From Candidatus Omnitrophota bacterium (lineage in GTDB: Bacteria > Omnitrophota > Gorgyraeia > Gygaellales > Profunditerraquicolaceae), in the NCBI GenBank assembly GCA_903907475.1, contig CAIVOB010000139.1, forward strand, positions 1-17,261: a stretch of DNA of 17,261 nt, in the 5' to 3' direction. A program made the position numbers and the translations under genes. Positions 2,512 to 15,842 of the stretch are shown piece after piece; within the stretch, counting starts at the first letter, position 1; every line of letters begins with the position of its first letter. The notes below the pieces were generated by a model, which was given only the letters and a program-made list of their open reading frames with translations, was not told where the DNA came from and made no database searches.

Positions 2512-3561
2512 CTATATACTCTTAACTATTAAATCCCCCACTTCAGTGGTGGAATAACCCATCTTACCAGCGGCCAAAGATTTAATATCCTTAGCCACCA
2601 ATTTAATTACTGCCTGCTCAATTGCTTTACCGGCTTTCTCCTCACCTAAATTCTCTAACATCATTCCTACGGCACAAATCGCCGCTAAAGGATTAATAAT
2701 ATTCTTACCGGTATATTTCGGCGCGCGTCCTCCAATTGGTTCAAACATCGATACTCCTTGCGGATTGATATTTCCACCTGCGGCAATCCCCATCCCACCT
2801 TGGATCATCGCGCCTAAATCCGTAATAATATCACCAAACATATTATCGGTAACAATCACATCAAACCACTCCGGATTCTTGACAAACCACATTGTTGTGG
2901 CATCAACATGCGCATAGTCAGTGGCCACGTCCGGATATTCTTTAGCAACTTCATTAAAAGTACGCTGCCAAAGATCCCAGGCAAAAGTCAAAACATTAGT
3001 TTTGCCGCACAGTGTTAATTTTTTACGCTTGTTACGCTTGCGCGTAAATTCAAAAGCATAACGAATGCAACGTTCCACGCCTTGACGCGTGTTATAAGAA
3101 ATCTGAATCGCAACTTCATTTTTAGTATTCTTATTCTGAAATTCACCCATACCTTTATATAACCCTTCAGAATTCTCGCGCACCACCACAAAATCAATAT
3201 CTTCCGGTTTTTTATCCTTGAGCGGGCAAAAATTCGCGTTATAAAGTTTTACCGGACGCAGATTAATATACTGATCTAAAGCAAATCTTAATTTTAACAA
3301 TACTCCGGTCTCAATCACACCGGGTTTAACTTCAGGATCTCCTACTGCGCCAAGATAAATCGCGGAATATTTTTTTAACTCCGCAATATCGGCATCATCA
3401 ACAAGTTTACCGGTCTTTAAATATCTTTGGCCGCTAAAATCAAAACTTTTGGTCTCATATTGAAATCCAAATTTCTTGGCCGCTACCGCAAGAACCTTTA
3501 ATCCTTCATTAACAACTTCAGGACCTGTTCCATCACCGGGTATAACTGCAATTTTGTACAT
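2512..3561 (-). CDS. leuB: 3-isopropylmalate dehydrogenase
   Basis: This 349-residue member of the isocitrate/isopropylmalate dehydrogenase family carries out the oxidative decarboxylation of 3-isopropylmalate in leucine synthesis. Family residues visible are Arg92 and Arg102 (LRF, LRPVKLY), Arg128 in VVRENSEGLY, Tyr135, Lys187, Asp220, and Asp244/Asp248 in DNMFGDIITDLG. The GDPxVxxGVIE and VDATTM stretches resemble actinobacterial-type LeuB rather than the RELTGGIYFG type of E. coli. The coenzyme loop reads GGRAPKYTGK (277-286): Lys-Tyr replaces the Asp-Ile of NAD-dependent LeuB, and the usual His is absent. The ATG has a strong AAGGAG ribosome site. Adjacency to leuC and leuD supports LeuB over homoisocitrate or tartrate dehydrogenase, which stay possible from sequence alone. 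Confidence 0.88.
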   Translation of the reverse strand: MYKIAVIPGDGTGPEVVNEGLKVLAVAAKKFGFQYETKSFDFSGQRYLKTGKLVDDADIAELKKYSAIYLGAVGDPEVKPGVIETGVLLKLRFALDQYINLRPVKLYNANFCPLKDKKPEDIDFVVVRENSEGLYKGMGEFQNKNTKNEVAIQISYNTRQGVERCIRYAFEFTRKRNKRKKLTLCGKTNVLTFAWDLWQRTFNEVAKEYPDVATDYAHVDATTMWFVKNPEWFDVIVTDNMFGDIITDLGAMIQGGMGIAAGGNINPQGVSMFEPIGGRAPKYTGKNIINPLAAICAVGMMLENLGEEKAGKAIEQAVIKLVAKDIKSLAAGKMGYSTTEVGDLIVKSI

Positions 3562-3590
3562 TGAGCTCCTTAATTTTTTGTCTAGCGAAA

Positions 3591-3648
3591 TCCTGACGAG
3601 TGTAATAATATTTTTATAAAAAATATTATTACATATTACGAGTCAGGA
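3591..3648. repeat. Two-stem hairpin element with GAG/TWTTACGA internal loop, copy A (leuD-leuB)
   Basis: The outer arms TCCTGAC (3591-3597) and GTCAGGA (3642-3648) pair perfectly. The inner arms pair over 15 bp (3601-3615 with 3619-3633) around a 3-base loop. Between the two stems lie GAG (3598-3600) on one side and TATTACGA (3634-3641) on the other. The element at 14787-14845 has the same internal loop, stem lengths and layout with entirely different stem sequences. This copy begins about 10 bases after the leuD stop and ends about 30 bases before the leuB start. No T-run follows in the transcribed (minus) direction, so it is not a standard terminator. It could be an mRNA-processing or stability hairpin, or a small mobile palindrome. 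Confidence 0.85.
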
Positions 3649-3658
3649 CCTCTGTCGA

Positions 3659-4150
3659 TTATTTTACTTTATTCTTCTTAATATAATTAATTAAACCACC
3701 ACTAGCAACAATTTGCTGTAAAAACTCCGGGAACGCCTGAGTTTTATAACTCTCATTCTGGGTAATATTTTTAATGATCCCGGTCGCTAAATCAATCTCA
3801 ATCATATCCCCGTGATTAATCTGTTCAATTTGAGCAGTCTCTAAAAAAGGTAAGCCGATGTTGATTGCATTTCTAAAAAATATCGCCGCGAAACTTTTCG
3901 CCAAGACCGCCGCTACGCCACACCCCTTAATCGCCAAAGGAGCATGTTCCCGGCTGGAACCACAGCCAAAATTATTACCCGCCACAATAATATCTCCGGG
4001 GCTGACTGCCTGAGAAAAATTAGGATTAATCGTCTCCATGCAATGCTTTCCCAGCTCCGCAGCATCAGTCGAAACTAAATATTTAGCGGCAATAATATCA
4101 TCAGTATTAATATCATTGCCAAATTTATGTACTTTTCCTTTTATTATCAT
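3659..4150 (-). CDS. leuD: 3-isopropylmalate dehydratase small subunit
   Basis: This 163-residue protein has the length of the compact (archaeal/anaerobe-type) LeuD swivel domain, shorter than the roughly 200-residue E. coli form. It partners LeuC to isomerise 2-isopropylmalate to 3-isopropylmalate. Visible family motifs are [11 protein letters not shown] near the N-terminus, [12 protein letters not shown] (about 59-70) for substrate recognition, and [16 protein letters not shown]. Its ATG overlaps the leuC stop in an ATGA arrangement (4147-4150), giving tight coupling and equal dosage of the two subunits. The same fold serves homoaconitase, but the leuC/leuB neighbours favour leucine synthesis. 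Confidence 0.94.
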
Positions 4151-6681: not shown

Positions 6682-6715
6682 TAAATACGACCCCTTAAAT
6701 TAAATCCTCATTATA

Positions 6716-6752
6716 AATTTACCCCGCCAAAGCCATTCATGCGGGGTAAATT
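6716..6752 (-). promoter_or_regulatory. Strong hairpin between acpP and fabF
   Basis: The arms AATTTACCCCGC (6716-6727) and GCGGGGTAAATT (6741-6752) pair perfectly over 12 bp around a 13-base loop. In the direction of transcription the sequence after the hairpin is TATAATGAGGA, with no T-run, so this is not a normal intrinsic terminator. It lies downstream of acpP, whose product is usually needed in large excess over fatty-acid enzymes. I infer a 3' stabilising or partial-attenuation hairpin that uncouples acpP from fabF levels. Confidence 0.7.
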
Positions 6753-6777
6753 ATTAACTTGTTATTAAATCAGCTGC

Positions 6778-12464: not shown

Positions 12465-14546
12465 CTATCCTACTAATACTAACTTCTCATACTCTGGAAA
12501 ACTGCGCAGCAGCTTCTTTTTTAACAATTGGTGCGTCCGATCCGCCAAATTCGGATCCGCCGTTAATATTTTTAGCGCTTCTTCACGGGCACTCTTAAGC
12601 AAATGCATTTGCGCTAAAGGATTTGCGATTCTTAACTCTGCTAATCCATGTTGACGCCGGCCAAAAAACTCTCCCGGCCCGCGAATCTTCAAATCTTCTT
12701 CAGCAATTTTAAAGCCATCGGCAGTTAACACCATTGCCTCTAATCTGGCTTGAGACTCTTCAGTCGGAGCATCTGAGATTAATAAACAATACGACTGTAA
12801 CGACCCTCTACCGATTCTACCCCGTAACTGATGTAATTGACTTAAACCAAAACGCTCCGCTGATTCAATAATCATACAGGTGGCGTTAGCAATGTCAATA
12901 CCAACTTCTAGAATCGTAGTTGAAATCAAAAGATCGAGTATGCCATTTCTAAACTTTTTCATCACGGCATCTTGCGCAGATTGTTTAAGTCTTCCATGGA
13001 TCAAACCTAAACGATAATCCTTAAACTCCCCCTTCTGCAGCTCTAAAAACATCTTCTTGGCTCCAGCAATATCTAATGCATAAGACTCCTCAATCACGGG
13101 ATAAATAATATATCCCTGACGTTGATTTTTAAGCTCATGCTTTAATATAGCAAAACCTTGGTCTTTTTGCTGAGATGTAAAATGCAACGTTTTTACCGGC
13201 AGGCGGCCGGGAGGAAGCTCATCAATCACGGAAATATCCAAATCTCCATAAAGAGTGATCGCAAGTGTGCGCGGGATGGGAGTTGCGGTCATAATTAAAA
13301 TATCAGGGTTATTACCCTTCTTGGGTAAAAGCGCCCTTTGCCCCACTCCAAATTTATGCTGTTCATCAATCACCACCAAACCTAAATTCGCGAAAACTAC
13401 ATCCTCCTGTAAAAGCGCGTGCGTTCCAATTATTAAATCGATTTTTCCGCCAGCCATCTCCTGATGCATCTTTTCCTTATTCTTATCCTGGCCGAGTAAC
13501 AACTCCACGCGCAATTTACTTCCCCTAAAATTTAATGCTGATAATTGCGTCACAATTTTCTCATAATGTTGACGCGCTAAAATTTCCGTAGGAGCCATAA
13601 TGACCGCTTGATAACCCCCCTCTAAAGCTAATAAACAAGCCGCCAGCGCCACCACGGTTTTCCCGGAACCAACATCCCCCTGAATTAAGCGCTGCATCGC
13701 TTGAGGCGAGGCCATATTTTCTTTAATCTCGGCAATGACTTTTTCTTGAGCGTGTGTTAAAACAAAAGGCAACTGCGCAATAAATGCCCGACTTAAACCT
13801 CCGCTAACATTATGCGCAATCCCCTGCTTTTCTTTACGCCTTAATTTTCTTAAAACCAAAGGCAATTGAAAAATAAAAAATTCTTCAAAACTTAAACGTG
13901 CATAAGCTTGTTGCTGTAAATCTAAGCTATGAGGAAAATGAATATTAAGCAAACTTTCGGCAAGATTTAAAAAATTATGACGCGCGCGCAAATCAAAAGT
14001 AAGGCAATCACCAAGCTTAGGAATAAATTCATCCAAAGCGCTTTTCACTGCCTGGCGCAGACCCCTTTGCGAAAATCCTTTCGGTAGCCGGTAGACAGGA
14101 ACAATTCTGCTAATATTTAAAGAGCCCTCCTCTTCTCCGTCTAAAAACTCAAACTCCGGATTATTCATCTGCAACCGGCCATTATAAATCTCCACCTTGC
14201 CATAAAGAATTAAAGAAACGCCGGACTTAAGATATTCTTTTAAATACGGTTGATTAAACCAAACGCAATTTAATTTACCCGTACCATCATAAAATAAAGC
14301 TTCGGTGATACTAAACCTTTTCCTTCTCCAGGAGTTCCGCTGGCCGCCGGTAAGAAGCTGCGCCTTAATGGTATAAATTTGGCCGGATTTTAATTCAGAT
14401 ATTTTGGCAAAATTAGTGCGATCTTCATAACGCCGGGGAAAATAATACAATAAATCCTCGATTGTCAAAACACCGCAGGACGCAAAACTTTTTGCGCGCG
14501 CCGGGCCGATGCCTTTAAGATATTGGATAGAAGTATTCTCTGCCAT
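12465..14546 (-). CDS. recG: ATP-dependent DNA helicase RecG
   Basis: This 693-residue protein equals E. coli RecG in length. RecG regresses stalled replication forks and branch-migrates recombination intermediates. An N-terminal helix-hairpin-helix-like KGIGPARAKSF (11-21) precedes the OB-fold wedge domain (about 55-150). Walker A GDVGSGKT is at 290-297, DEQH at 394-397 (DEQHKFG instead of the usual DEQHRFG), and TATPIPRTLA follows at 420-429. The second helicase domain includes STTILEVGIDIANA and QLRGRIGRG. The ATG at 14546 has no ribosome site and lies 6 bases after a TATAAT, suggesting a leaderless message. Confidence 0.98.
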   Translation of the reverse strand: MAENTSIQYLKGIGPARAKSFASCGVLTIEDLLYYFPRRYEDRTNFAKISELKSGQIYTIKAQLLTGGQRNSWRRKRFSITEALFYDGTGKLNCVWFNQPYLKEYLKSGVSLILYGKVEIYNGRLQMNNPEFEFLDGEEEGSLNISRIVPVYRLPKGFSQRGLRQAVKSALDEFIPKLGDCLTFDLRARHNFLNLAESLLNIHFPHSLDLQQQAYARLSFEEFFIFQLPLVLRKLRRKEKQGIAHNVSGGLSRAFIAQLPFVLTHAQEKVIAEIKENMASPQAMQRLIQGDVGSGKTVVALAACLLALEGGYQAVIMAPTEILARQHYEKIVTQLSALNFRGSKLRVELLLGQDKNKEKMHQEMAGGKIDLIIGTHALLQEDVVFANLGLVVIDEQHKFGVGQRALLPKKGNNPDILIMTATPIPRTLAITLYGDLDISVIDELPPGRLPVKTLHFTSQQKDQGFAILKHELKNQRQGYIIYPVIEESYALDIAGAKKMFLELQKGEFKDYRLGLIHGRLKQSAQDAVMKKFRNGILDLLISTTILEVGIDIANATCMIIESAERFGLSQLHQLRGRIGRGSLQSYCLLISDAPTEESQARLEAMVLTADGFKIAEEDLKIRGPGEFFGRRQHGLAELRIANPLAQMHLLKSAREEALKILTADPNLADRTHQLLKKKLLRSFPEYEKLVLVG

Positions 14547-14616: not shown

Positions 14617-14718
14617 TGTTGGAAAGAGATAACACACAACAAGGAGGCTAGGAACGATAGCGAAAGCTATTAGGCCTATCACCTACAAGAAAACCCCGGG
14701 AACTTACGGGGCTTTTTT
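14617..14718 (+). ncRNA. Candidate plus-strand small RNA of about 100 nt, no known family recognised
   Basis: This stretch reads as a small RNA gene with three helices in order. TGTTG (14617-14621) pairs with CAACA (14637-14641). GATAGC-GAAA-GCTATT (14656-14671) is a 6-bp hairpin with a GNRA tetraloop, extended by TAGG (14649-14652) with CCTA (14675-14678). A GC-rich intrinsic terminator ends it at 14694-14718. A GAAA loop on this strand (TTTC on the other) and the terminator T-run both point to plus-strand transcription. A full AAGGAGG (14641-14647) lies unpaired or weakly paired between helices. No ATG, GTG or TTG follows at ribosome spacing, so it is probably not a leader peptide. I do not recognise it as 6S, SRP, tmRNA or a riboswitch class. 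Confidence 0.5.
14694..14718 (+). terminator. Intrinsic terminator
   Basis: CCCCG (14694-14698) pairs with CGGGG (14707-14711) around an 8-base loop, followed by C and six T (14713-14718). A preceding run of A makes it partly bidirectional: on the minus strand the stem is followed by TTTTCTTG, so it may also end dusB transcripts. Confidence 0.8.
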
Positions 14719-14787
14719 GTTTGTGAGCGGATAACTTACCGAACGCAAAGCGTGAGGTAAGTTATAGCGTAAGCGCCCGCGAACAAA
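14716..14787 (+). repeat. Long imperfect hairpin with tandem GA/GA step (element C)
   Basis: As RNA, TTTGTTTGTG (14716-14725) pairs with CGCGAACAAA (14778-14787) through 10 pairs including two G-U. ATAACTTACC (14731-14740) pairs perfectly with GGTAAGTTAT (14756-14765). The tip is GA, ACGC, AAA, GCGT, GA (14741-14755), that is a 4-bp hairpin joined through opposed GA/GA, which form sheared pairs in RNA. The left arm overlaps the terminator T-run. It directly abuts the hairpin at 14787-14845. Function unknown. Confidence 0.65.
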
Positions 14788-14845
14788 TTCCGCTGAGTAT
14801 GCCAAAATTATTAGAATAATTTTGGCATATTTTACGAAGCGGAAT
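14787..14845. repeat. Two-stem hairpin element with GAG/TWTTACGA internal loop, copy B (recG-dusB)
   Basis: The outer arms ATTCCGCT (14787-14794) and AGCGGAAT (14838-14845) pair perfectly. The inner arms pair over 15 bp (14798-14812 with 14815-14829) around the 2-base loop AG. The bases between stems are GAG (14795-14797) and TTTTACGA (14830-14837). This layout matches the element at 3591-3648 with unrelated stem bases. On the plus strand it is followed by C and five T, so this copy could also act as a terminator in that direction. Confidence 0.85.
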
Positions 14846-14861: not shown

Positions 14862-14880
14862 ATTAGTGTCTGTCCCTAAT
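14862..14880. repeat. Short palindrome with GGGACAGACAC motif at the dusB stop
   Basis: ATTAG (14862-14866) and CTAAT (14876-14880) flank TGTCTGTCC. On the minus strand this reads TTAGGGACAGACACTAAT and starts within the dusB stop codon. From memory, GGGACAGACAC strings recur beside REP-type (IS200-like) transposases in several phyla. I cannot verify that here, so a mobile-element remnant is only a suggestion. Confidence 0.4.
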
Positions 14881-15842
14881 TAAATACTGAACGCCTCTTT
14901 TATGATTTTCTCTATTTCGACCTTAGTCCTTACCCTGGAAGATTTTTCCCTTAAAGTTCGCACCTTACGCAATCCCTTAGTGTACCAGCTATAAAATTTA
15001 CGAAAAATTATCACACCGTTTCTTTCTCCATAAAAACTTACGCTCGCATCCAAATGTTCCAACATAATCCGCGCCACTTCTTCATTCTGCGGACGGCTAA
15101 TAATCTTATCATGTTTTAAATACTCACTTATTTCTTTAAAGATCCAAGGATTGCCCAGGGATCCGCGGGCGATTGCCAGGCCGTCACATCCGGTTTCATC
15201 AATCATTTTTTTAGCCAAAATATTAGAAAAAACATCCCCACTGGCAATTAAGGGAATTTTTAATACTTTTTTTACTTCCCGAATAACATCATAATCTACC
15301 TGCCCGCTATACCCTTGAGTTTTAGTGCGGCCGTGAATAAACAAAGCATCCACACCGCAATCTTGGGCTAATAAAGCAATTTCCCGGGCATTCACTGAAT
15401 CTTTGTCCCACCCAGAACGGATTTTAACACTTACCGGGAGCCAGGAATTTTTCACCACTAATTTTAATAATTTAGTAAATTTTTTTGGTTCACGTAATAA
15501 TCCTGAACCCTCTCCTCTGCGCACCACTTTTTTAGCCGGACAAGCCGCATTAAAATCTAAAAGATCAAATTTATAATTACGTAATACTTCCAAAGCTTTT
15601 AAAATATATTGCTCTTCGCATCCTAATACCTGTAAACCTAAAGGTTTATCTTTAGGCAAAGTCGCAAGCATTTGCTTAGTACGGCGGCTAGCGTGGCTAA
15701 TCGAGCGACAGTTAATCATCTCCACAAACGCTAACTCTGCCCCGAATTTACGGTTGAGCATGCGAAATGGTAAATCTGTGATCCCGGCCATCGGGGCAAG
15801 AATCAAATTAGATTTTAATTTTAAATTGCCTATTTTTAGCAT
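14880..15842 (-). CDS. dusB: tRNA-dihydrouridine synthase
   Basis: This 320-residue FMN enzyme reduces uridines in the tRNA D-loop. It opens with KLKSNLILAPMAGITDLPFRML (8-29), has the catalytic Cys101 in NAACPAKKV, and later IRSGW, FIHGRT, ASGDV and DGLAIARGSLGNPWIF for flavin binding. The usual NxGCP has Ala100 in place of Gly. Length and PAKKV place it nearest DusB. There is no Shine-Dalgarno sequence: a 90-base structured repeat lies 13 bases before the ATG. The stop codon is merged with a short palindrome, so the last residues may have been altered by an insertion. It follows pgi after 108 bases. Confidence 0.93.
   Translation of the reverse strand: MLKIGNLKLKSNLILAPMAGITDLPFRMLNRKFGAELAFVEMINCRSISHASRRTKQMLATLPKDKPLGLQVLGCEEQYILKALEVLRNYKFDLLDFNAACPAKKVVRRGEGSGLLREPKKFTKLLKLVVKNSWLPVSVKIRSGWDKDSVNAREIALLAQDCGVDALFIHGRTKTQGYSGQVDYDVIREVKKVLKIPLIASGDVFSNILAKKMIDETGCDGLAIARGSLGNPWIFKEISEYLKHDKIISRPQNEEVARIMLEHLDASVSFYGERNGVIIFRKFYSWYTKGLRKVRTLREKSSRVRTKVEIEKIIKEAFSI

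Follow-up and report, generated by a model that had tools for sequence, protein, structure and literature searches.

As described in the sections cited here, REP, REPIN and BIME sequences are short imperfect palindromes scattered between the genes of bacteria and thought to be non-autonomous (PMC3733652; PMC8266576). The elements of the Omnitrophota that we describe share with those associated with a RAYT (TnpAREP) their short, imperfectly palindromic form, their conserved unpaired bases and their intergenic dispersal in many copies, a single genome having as many as 60 matches. They differ from RAYT-mobilised REPs in that the alignments show GA/GA mismatches instead of a GTAG or CGTC tetranucleotide at the hairpin foot, and in that none of 40 Y1 transposase loci has the element at E≤0.01. 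The cited part of one of these papers also describes RAYT genes flanked by unrelated repeats and places REPs predominantly downstream of coding regions (PMC3733652), whereas the Omnitrophota elements mostly lie before gene starts, in the sense orientation.

Other known hairpin elements share part of this picture. The mitochondrial double-hairpin and repetitive hairpin-forming elements are, in the passages cited, likewise intergenic, variable between lineages and seemingly invasive with no known mobiliser (PMC2800124; PMC5910586), but they are organellar, whereas ours are bacterial and sit at gene starts; in the sponge elements, as far as the cited part describes them, the stems are conserved and the loops vary (PMC2800124), the reverse of what we see here. 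The Rickettsia palindromic elements are similar in being palindromic insertions of ~150 bp scattered in a bacterial genome, but in the section cited they lie inside genes as in-frame fusions (PMC10969869) and not between genes. Bacterial MITEs (Correia, ERIC, BOX, RUP) are also intergenic and, according to the same section, are folded in the transcript and can alter expression or RNase cleavage (PMC10969869); in the Omnitrophota elements, by contrast, neither a terminal inverted repeat running from end to end nor a clear duplication was seen, and the orientation at starts is strongly sense.

No description of the element was found in the open-access literature searched. Rfam gave no match in the window at the gathering score; eight loci searched at E≤1 yielded three weak matches, all well short of that score, of which one (mir-5728, 26 of 100 bits) lies over an element. 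Integron attC sites carry R and L boxes and come with an integrase; boxes of this kind were not noticed in the elements. An intrinsic terminator was considered and rejected, as the elements precede a Shine-Dalgarno sequence or an ATG in the flanks read rather than forming a GC stem followed by a T run; one separate terminator-like site lies near the second element of the window, at 14694-14711. A phage origin was also rejected: a 19-base core had no match in viral_contigs, and positions 3500-3750 of the window had no phage match.

The two hairpins of the window

The window is the whole 17,261-nucleotide stretch analysed, contig CAIVOB010000139.1 of a Candidatus Omnitrophota bacterium (assembly GCA_903907475.1). 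An earlier note had pointed out two hairpins in it, which are real and lie where it had placed them to within 1-2 bases (E1 and E2, Table 1). Their perfect 15-nt arms are at the top of the window's inverted-repeat list and, folded as single-stranded DNA, both hairpins lie 7.6 to 8.7 s.d. beyond dinucleotide shuffles on either strand, with none of 200 shuffles equalling them. Hairpin A of E1 has an outer stem of 7 bp with an unpaired A/C end, an inner stem of 15 bp and a loop of 3 nt; GAG lies opposite TATTACGA on the plus strand, and the order on the leuB strand is stem, TC, G, TAATA, 15-bp inner stem, CTC, stem. Hairpin A of E2 has an outer stem of 8 bp, GAG opposite TTTTACGA, an inner stem of 15 bp and a loop of 2 nt.

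Table 1. Features of the two elements and their neighbours in the window
Feature	Position	Strand	Basis or remark
leuB (3-isopropylmalate dehydrogenase)	2512..3561	-	start codon immediately 3' of E1
E1 short second module TTCGC...AAGGAG-CTCA	3562..3589	-	replaces full hairpin B
E1 hairpin A	3590..3649	- (leuB strand)	inverted-repeat list, folding, model R1
leuD-like gene (Aconitase_C)	3659..4150	-	its stop codon 9 nt before E1
E2 hairpin B	14720..14786	-	outer stem TTGT/ACAA, stem GCGG/CCGC, inner stem ATAACTTACC/GGTAAGTTAT
E2 hairpin A	14787..14845	-	inverted-repeat list, folding, model R1
dus gene	14880..15842	-	stop codon 34 nt before E2

What exceeds chance here is structure and motif together, the sequence motif alone being weak. 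The pattern GAGT-N20-50-ATWTTACGA had six matches in the genome (both strands) against three for a reversed-pattern control, and by eye only E1 and E2 among the six were long hairpins; since the pattern was barely above its control, structure models were used instead. A covariance model built from the two window copies (R1) picked up three others in the same genome, with E values of 2.9e-10, 1.7e-9 and 2.0e-5, and at E≤1 it had matches in 29 of the 58 relatives. Reading 33 copies with their flanks, E1 and E2 included, overturned the notion of a single-hairpin unit: the unit consists of two hairpins in tandem, ~110 nt in all. On the gene strand, hairpin A is laid out as ATCCCGCC - TC - stem - TC - GGCGGGAT, and hairpin B, 3' of it, as AAT - TC - stem - TC - ATT, frequently with another such loop inside in the sequences read; these TC/TC mismatches are GA/GA on the strand used in the earlier note.

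A full-length model (R2) was made from 13 full copies. It matches E2, which has both hairpins, at 14722-14845 with 83.6 bits and E1 at 3560-3649 with 53.8 bits. In E1, hairpin A is followed by a short module that contains the Shine-Dalgarno sequence of leuB (AAGGAG, 3571-3566). Hairpin B of E2 has its GA/GA mismatches at 14725-14726 and 14781-14782 of the plus strand and one additional small hairpin inside. E2 is placed in the 3' region of dus with no adjoining start codon, the start of recG being at 14546.

Structure and distribution of the family

The search of relatives with covariance models that the earlier note had proposed was strongly positive with both R1 and R2, the stems being compensatory; further copies are present and the loop bases are not random. 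R2 matches 48 of 58 relatives at E≤0.01, with up to 60 matches per genome, and 107 of 193 sampled Omnitrophota genomes at E≤1e-6; at the same cut-off, which does detect matches in Omnitrophota, it matches none of 200 genomes of another phylum (Proteobacteria). In the other 86 of these genomes R2 finds nothing at E≤1e-6, so that the element is dispensable, a point against a role as leader. In the window's genome itself R2 gives 13 matches at E≤0.1, including an antisense echo of E2. A 21-base core was found in 26 stretches of named species genomes, 19 of them from Omnitrophota or Omnitrophica, five from the MAG DP16D_bin.15 and two from others; R2 on 15 of the 26 gave 12 strong matches, one weak match (locus L200; loci and genomes carry our own L and G numbers) and two without match. 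The pattern matches L203 and L209, outside Omnitrophota, have no R2 match and were taken as chance.

Across 39 pairs in an alignment of 105 distinct rows, pairing holds in 93.8% of cells compared with 75.3% after shuffling, and 27-43% when the partners are slid by 1-3 columns; 734 cells are changed on both sides (shuffled mean 194; 0 of 500 shuffles as high), against 66 changed on one side, and 38 of the 39 pairs have a double change, all these figures being flattered by an alignment fitted to the model and by counting related copies as independent. Together with the R1 and R2 matches, this stem covariation bears out the claim that what is conserved is a folded shape and not a sequence.

The mismatches are nearly constant. 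On the gene strand, those of hairpin A are T in 95/101 and C in 99/103 rows on the 5' side and T in 96/104 and C in 100/103 on the 3' side; the corresponding figures for hairpin B are 100/105, 103/105, 105/105 and 99/105. Thus, of the fixed loop GAG opposite TWTTACGA that had been proposed, GA facing GA holds, the TNTTA part is partly conserved, and the third base of GAG is in fact a covarying pair with the C of ACGA (A-U 57, G-C 40, U-A 4, G-U 2 and C-G 1 in 104 rows, gene strand). The claim that the stems have no common sequence is fair for E1 and E2, but the family prefers CCCGCC in the outer and AAAATT in the inner stem, and AAAATT and the CCC are mostly constant, so that the stems are partly constrained. 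Similarly, an inner stem of exactly 15 bp describes both window copies but not the family, where it ranges from ~1 to 15 bp, with one or few pairs in L060, L063, L065 and L068. A nested additional hairpin is seen in L024, L031 and L129, and some junction copies have a plain hairpin A with no mismatch (e.g. L189 at rplO-secY).

Genomic sites and dispersal

Placement relative to genes was assessed for 113 elements, which are the better-scoring, fetched part of the listed matches and not a random sample (140 R2 matches, less 30 below 50.5 bits, many of them antisense palindrome echoes, and less 7 repeated sites, gave 103, to which 10 ribosomal-operon copies were added). With a start defined as an ATG opening at least 60 codons within 40 nt of the element, 71 have a start 3' of them in sense only and 6 on the opposite side and strand only (two-sided binomial p 3e-15), whereas 2 have both and 34 neither; the last group, E2 among them, speaks against a leader. 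Spacing to the ATG is bimodal, with 22 copies at ≤4 nt and 48 at 8-22 nt. A scripted search found a Shine-Dalgarno string in 47 of the 48 far copies and in none of the 22 near ones, of which 21 truly have none, as E1 carries its own inside its module, outside the scripted stretch. In 16/22 near and 28/48 far copies, a sense gene upstream ends with its stop codon no more than 60 nt away. By eye, the 5' flanks of the class without Shine-Dalgarno contained no consistent split Shine-Dalgarno 5' of the hairpins.

Of 30 downstream proteins compared with NCBIfam, 28 could be given a name at E≤1e-20, several of the sequences being cut by the fetched stretch and scoring under the curated cut-off. Among the genes so listed are those for ribosomal proteins L2, L7/L12, L16, L19, L31, S1, S8, S13 and S16, as well as SecY, IF-1, EF-G, EF-Tu, RpoA, enolase, GAPDH, DnaJ, NusB, SerA, HisF and LeuB. 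As these are genes of many functions, many of them in translation, a single metabolite regulon is not indicated.

The same junctions occur with and without the element. Ribosomal-operon stretches of 20 genomes of the same genus contained 24 R2 matches at E≤1, echoes included. At rplO-secY, the two genes overlap by 8 nt in 13 of the 19 readable genomes and adjoin without a gap in one; in the other five (L177, L178, L179, L181 and L189) an element separates them, with a different hairpin A in each. The flanks there would allow a ~9-nt copy of the gene overlap but have diverged too far to reveal one, and no clear target-site duplication was seen at the junctions compared. At map-infA, R2 found 3 of 20 sites filled, and a fourth (L187) has an element interrupted by N. 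For the E1 site, leuD-leuB, 23 of 25 loci were tried and 20 were readable, three having no readable leuB start; in classes assigned by eye, eight of the 20 have no element (L218, L224, L226, L228, L229, L231, L234, L238), six an E1-like hairpin with quite different stems (L216, L220, L225, L227, L230, L237), two a plain hairpin followed by the same ribosome-binding-site module (L222, L236), one the full double hairpin (L235) and three another palindrome (L217, L219, L223). At one place beside tRNA-Trp, seven genomes of the genus have a copy antisense to the tRNA (which was called in four of these loci), a placement that also speaks against a leader; their hairpin B modules clearly differ, and these copies are old.

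Within genomes, the copies are much more alike than their surroundings. Ten of the 52 matches of G047, chosen for comparison, are 78-100% alike (mean 91%), whereas the mean is 34-35% for flanks at a distance of 30-130 nt. Of the eight matches in G019, the three compared are 93-94% alike, and of the 12 in G052, the nine compared are 70-88% alike. Copies that are alike while their flanks differ point to dispersal within genomes, and near-identical copies at unrelated places together with empty sites, both seen here, are general features of mobile elements. We infer that the elements are mobile.

Several other repeats were seen along the way. The 5' flank AGATTACTATAATAATGTAT recurs before hairpin A in copies of G047 and G056 (L032, L116, L143, L147, L149, L152); it holds a TATAAT-like box, and it looks as though a promoter or an extended version of the element had moved along. 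A second hairpin family, ACACCCCGCGC - TAA...ATT - GCGCGGGTGT, occurs at ribosomal-operon junctions (rpsN-rpsH, rpsM-rpsK; e.g. L171, L172, L184, L187) and is followed by a second hairpin immediately before AGGAG. In the window, an imperfect inverted repeat, AATTTACCCCGC / GCGGGGTAAATT, at 6711-6757 between an acyl carrier protein gene and a fabF-like gene is possibly another intercistronic hairpin. A second palindromic repeat, GGGGACGGTTC...GAACCGTCCCC, is enriched at Y1_Tnp loci (14/40; L071, L074, L097, L109 and others) and is also inserted at leuD-leuB of L217 and L219, and L091 (G047:C61:7000-12000) has three perfect palindromes of the TTTTGGAAGTC / GACTTCCAAAA type near its Y1 gene. Furthermore, GGGACAGACAC lies at 14866-14876 of the window, 20 nt from E2, and twice at L090 (G000:C172:11500-16500), the sole Y1_Tnp locus of the window's genome; motifs of this type may be the real ends of Y1 elements.

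Function and alternative readings

We read the element best as a dispersed one whose structure is maintained and which serves, or is tolerated, as a folded leader in the RNA between two genes. More specifically, we consider, with about even confidence, that this is a family of short non-coding Omnitrophota elements made of two hairpins, typically mismatch-split, probably spread in genomes, and most likely a folded intercistronic mRNA leader. Compensatory stem change, in an alignment fitted to the model, and the sense position before starts (71 against 6) are features of a structured leader. For the most part the elements are found in sense between genes that run in the same direction, their 3' end adjoining the Shine-Dalgarno or start codon of the next gene, and in the mRNA they would fold on themselves; as the fold would absorb ~100 nt, the stop codon, ribosome-binding site and start codon would be brought close and stay exposed, and such a leader may insulate, stabilise or permit re-initiation. 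Because the near class, e.g. at secY and infA, has no Shine-Dalgarno, re-initiation or structure-aided loading is the most testable idea. Core pairs read on the sense strand include 54 G.U against 31 A.C cells, an excess that leans to RNA but is small and comes from a sense-strand model that favours G.U. Survivorship after random insertion would likewise give both position and orientation, and the two are not separable here. Structured RNA and copied palindrome, which the earlier note had set out as alternatives, are not mutually exclusive: the positions fit an RNA leader, while filled and empty sites and near-identical copies fit insertion.

One alternative is that the elements are purely selfish REP-like DNA, whose GA/GA-bearing folded strand is recognised and pasted by a Y1/HUH transposase, with position and orientation left by survivorship of insertions. 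TnpAREP is described as requiring unpaired bases in the hairpin, in the part of the source cited (PMC8266576), and Y1_Tnp (PF01797) is common, being present in 49 of 58 relatives and 148 of 193 genomes of the phylum, where it co-occurs with the element (91 genomes have the two together, 16 the element alone, 57 Y1 alone and 29 neither one; Fisher p 0.0033, uncorrected for kinship). Yet none of 40 Y1 loci (39 distinct genes, as L087 and L095 overlap, with ~1-2 kb of flank) has an R2 match at E≤0.01, the single weak one being at E 0.36, and R1 gave three weak matches in 2 of 20 loci tried; the Y1 loci bear other repeats instead, GGGGAC[AG]GTTC occurring in 14/40 of them compared with 2/123 element loci, and G029 and G037 have many elements (35 and 18) but no Y1 match. 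The Y1 transposases are thus poor candidates for the copying enzyme, and a purely selfish element seems somewhat unlikely. A further account, a phylum-wide mobile translation-start module that inserts at starts, even in tightly coupled ribosomal-operon genes, and whose fold enables re-initiation or loading without a Shine-Dalgarno, perhaps via a factor reading UC/UC or GA/GA, is in our view unlikely.

The constancy of the mismatches while the stems change would also suit a regulatory RNA site whose paired mismatches are bound by a putative protein or small RNA peculiar to the phylum, which would control how a set of growth genes is translated; the genes for translation and central metabolism among the 30 scanned and the position of the 3' end at a Shine-Dalgarno or ATG agree with this. 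A conserved regulon, however, is not what the sister genomes suggest, as their orthologues mostly have no element (13/19 plain overlaps at rplO-secY), and we regard such a site as rather improbable. Finally, the stems might stay perfect with no selection at all. Template switching in replication can copy one hairpin arm onto the other, so that hairpins would correct themselves while drifting and have no function of their own. The great excess of both-side over one-side changes (734 against 66 cells), the rarity of G.U and A.C pairs and the finding that same-site copies may differ by a whole hairpin B (G006 and G003) agree with this process, but the cells count sequences rather than events in an alignment fitted to the model, and the same process should erase the TC/TC mismatches, which are kept in 92-100% of aligned rows; it is the least probable of the explanations weighed here.

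Hairpin elements that keep a shape and not a sequence evade ordinary repeat finders. The Omnitrophota family surfaced through its structure only, and more than half of the genomes sampled from this large and mostly uncultivated phylum contain it. The same operon junctions with and without the element constitute a natural experiment in the crossing of structured intergenic gaps by ribosomes. Furthermore, the family is well suited to the long-standing question of how hairpin elements can spread with no known enzyme.
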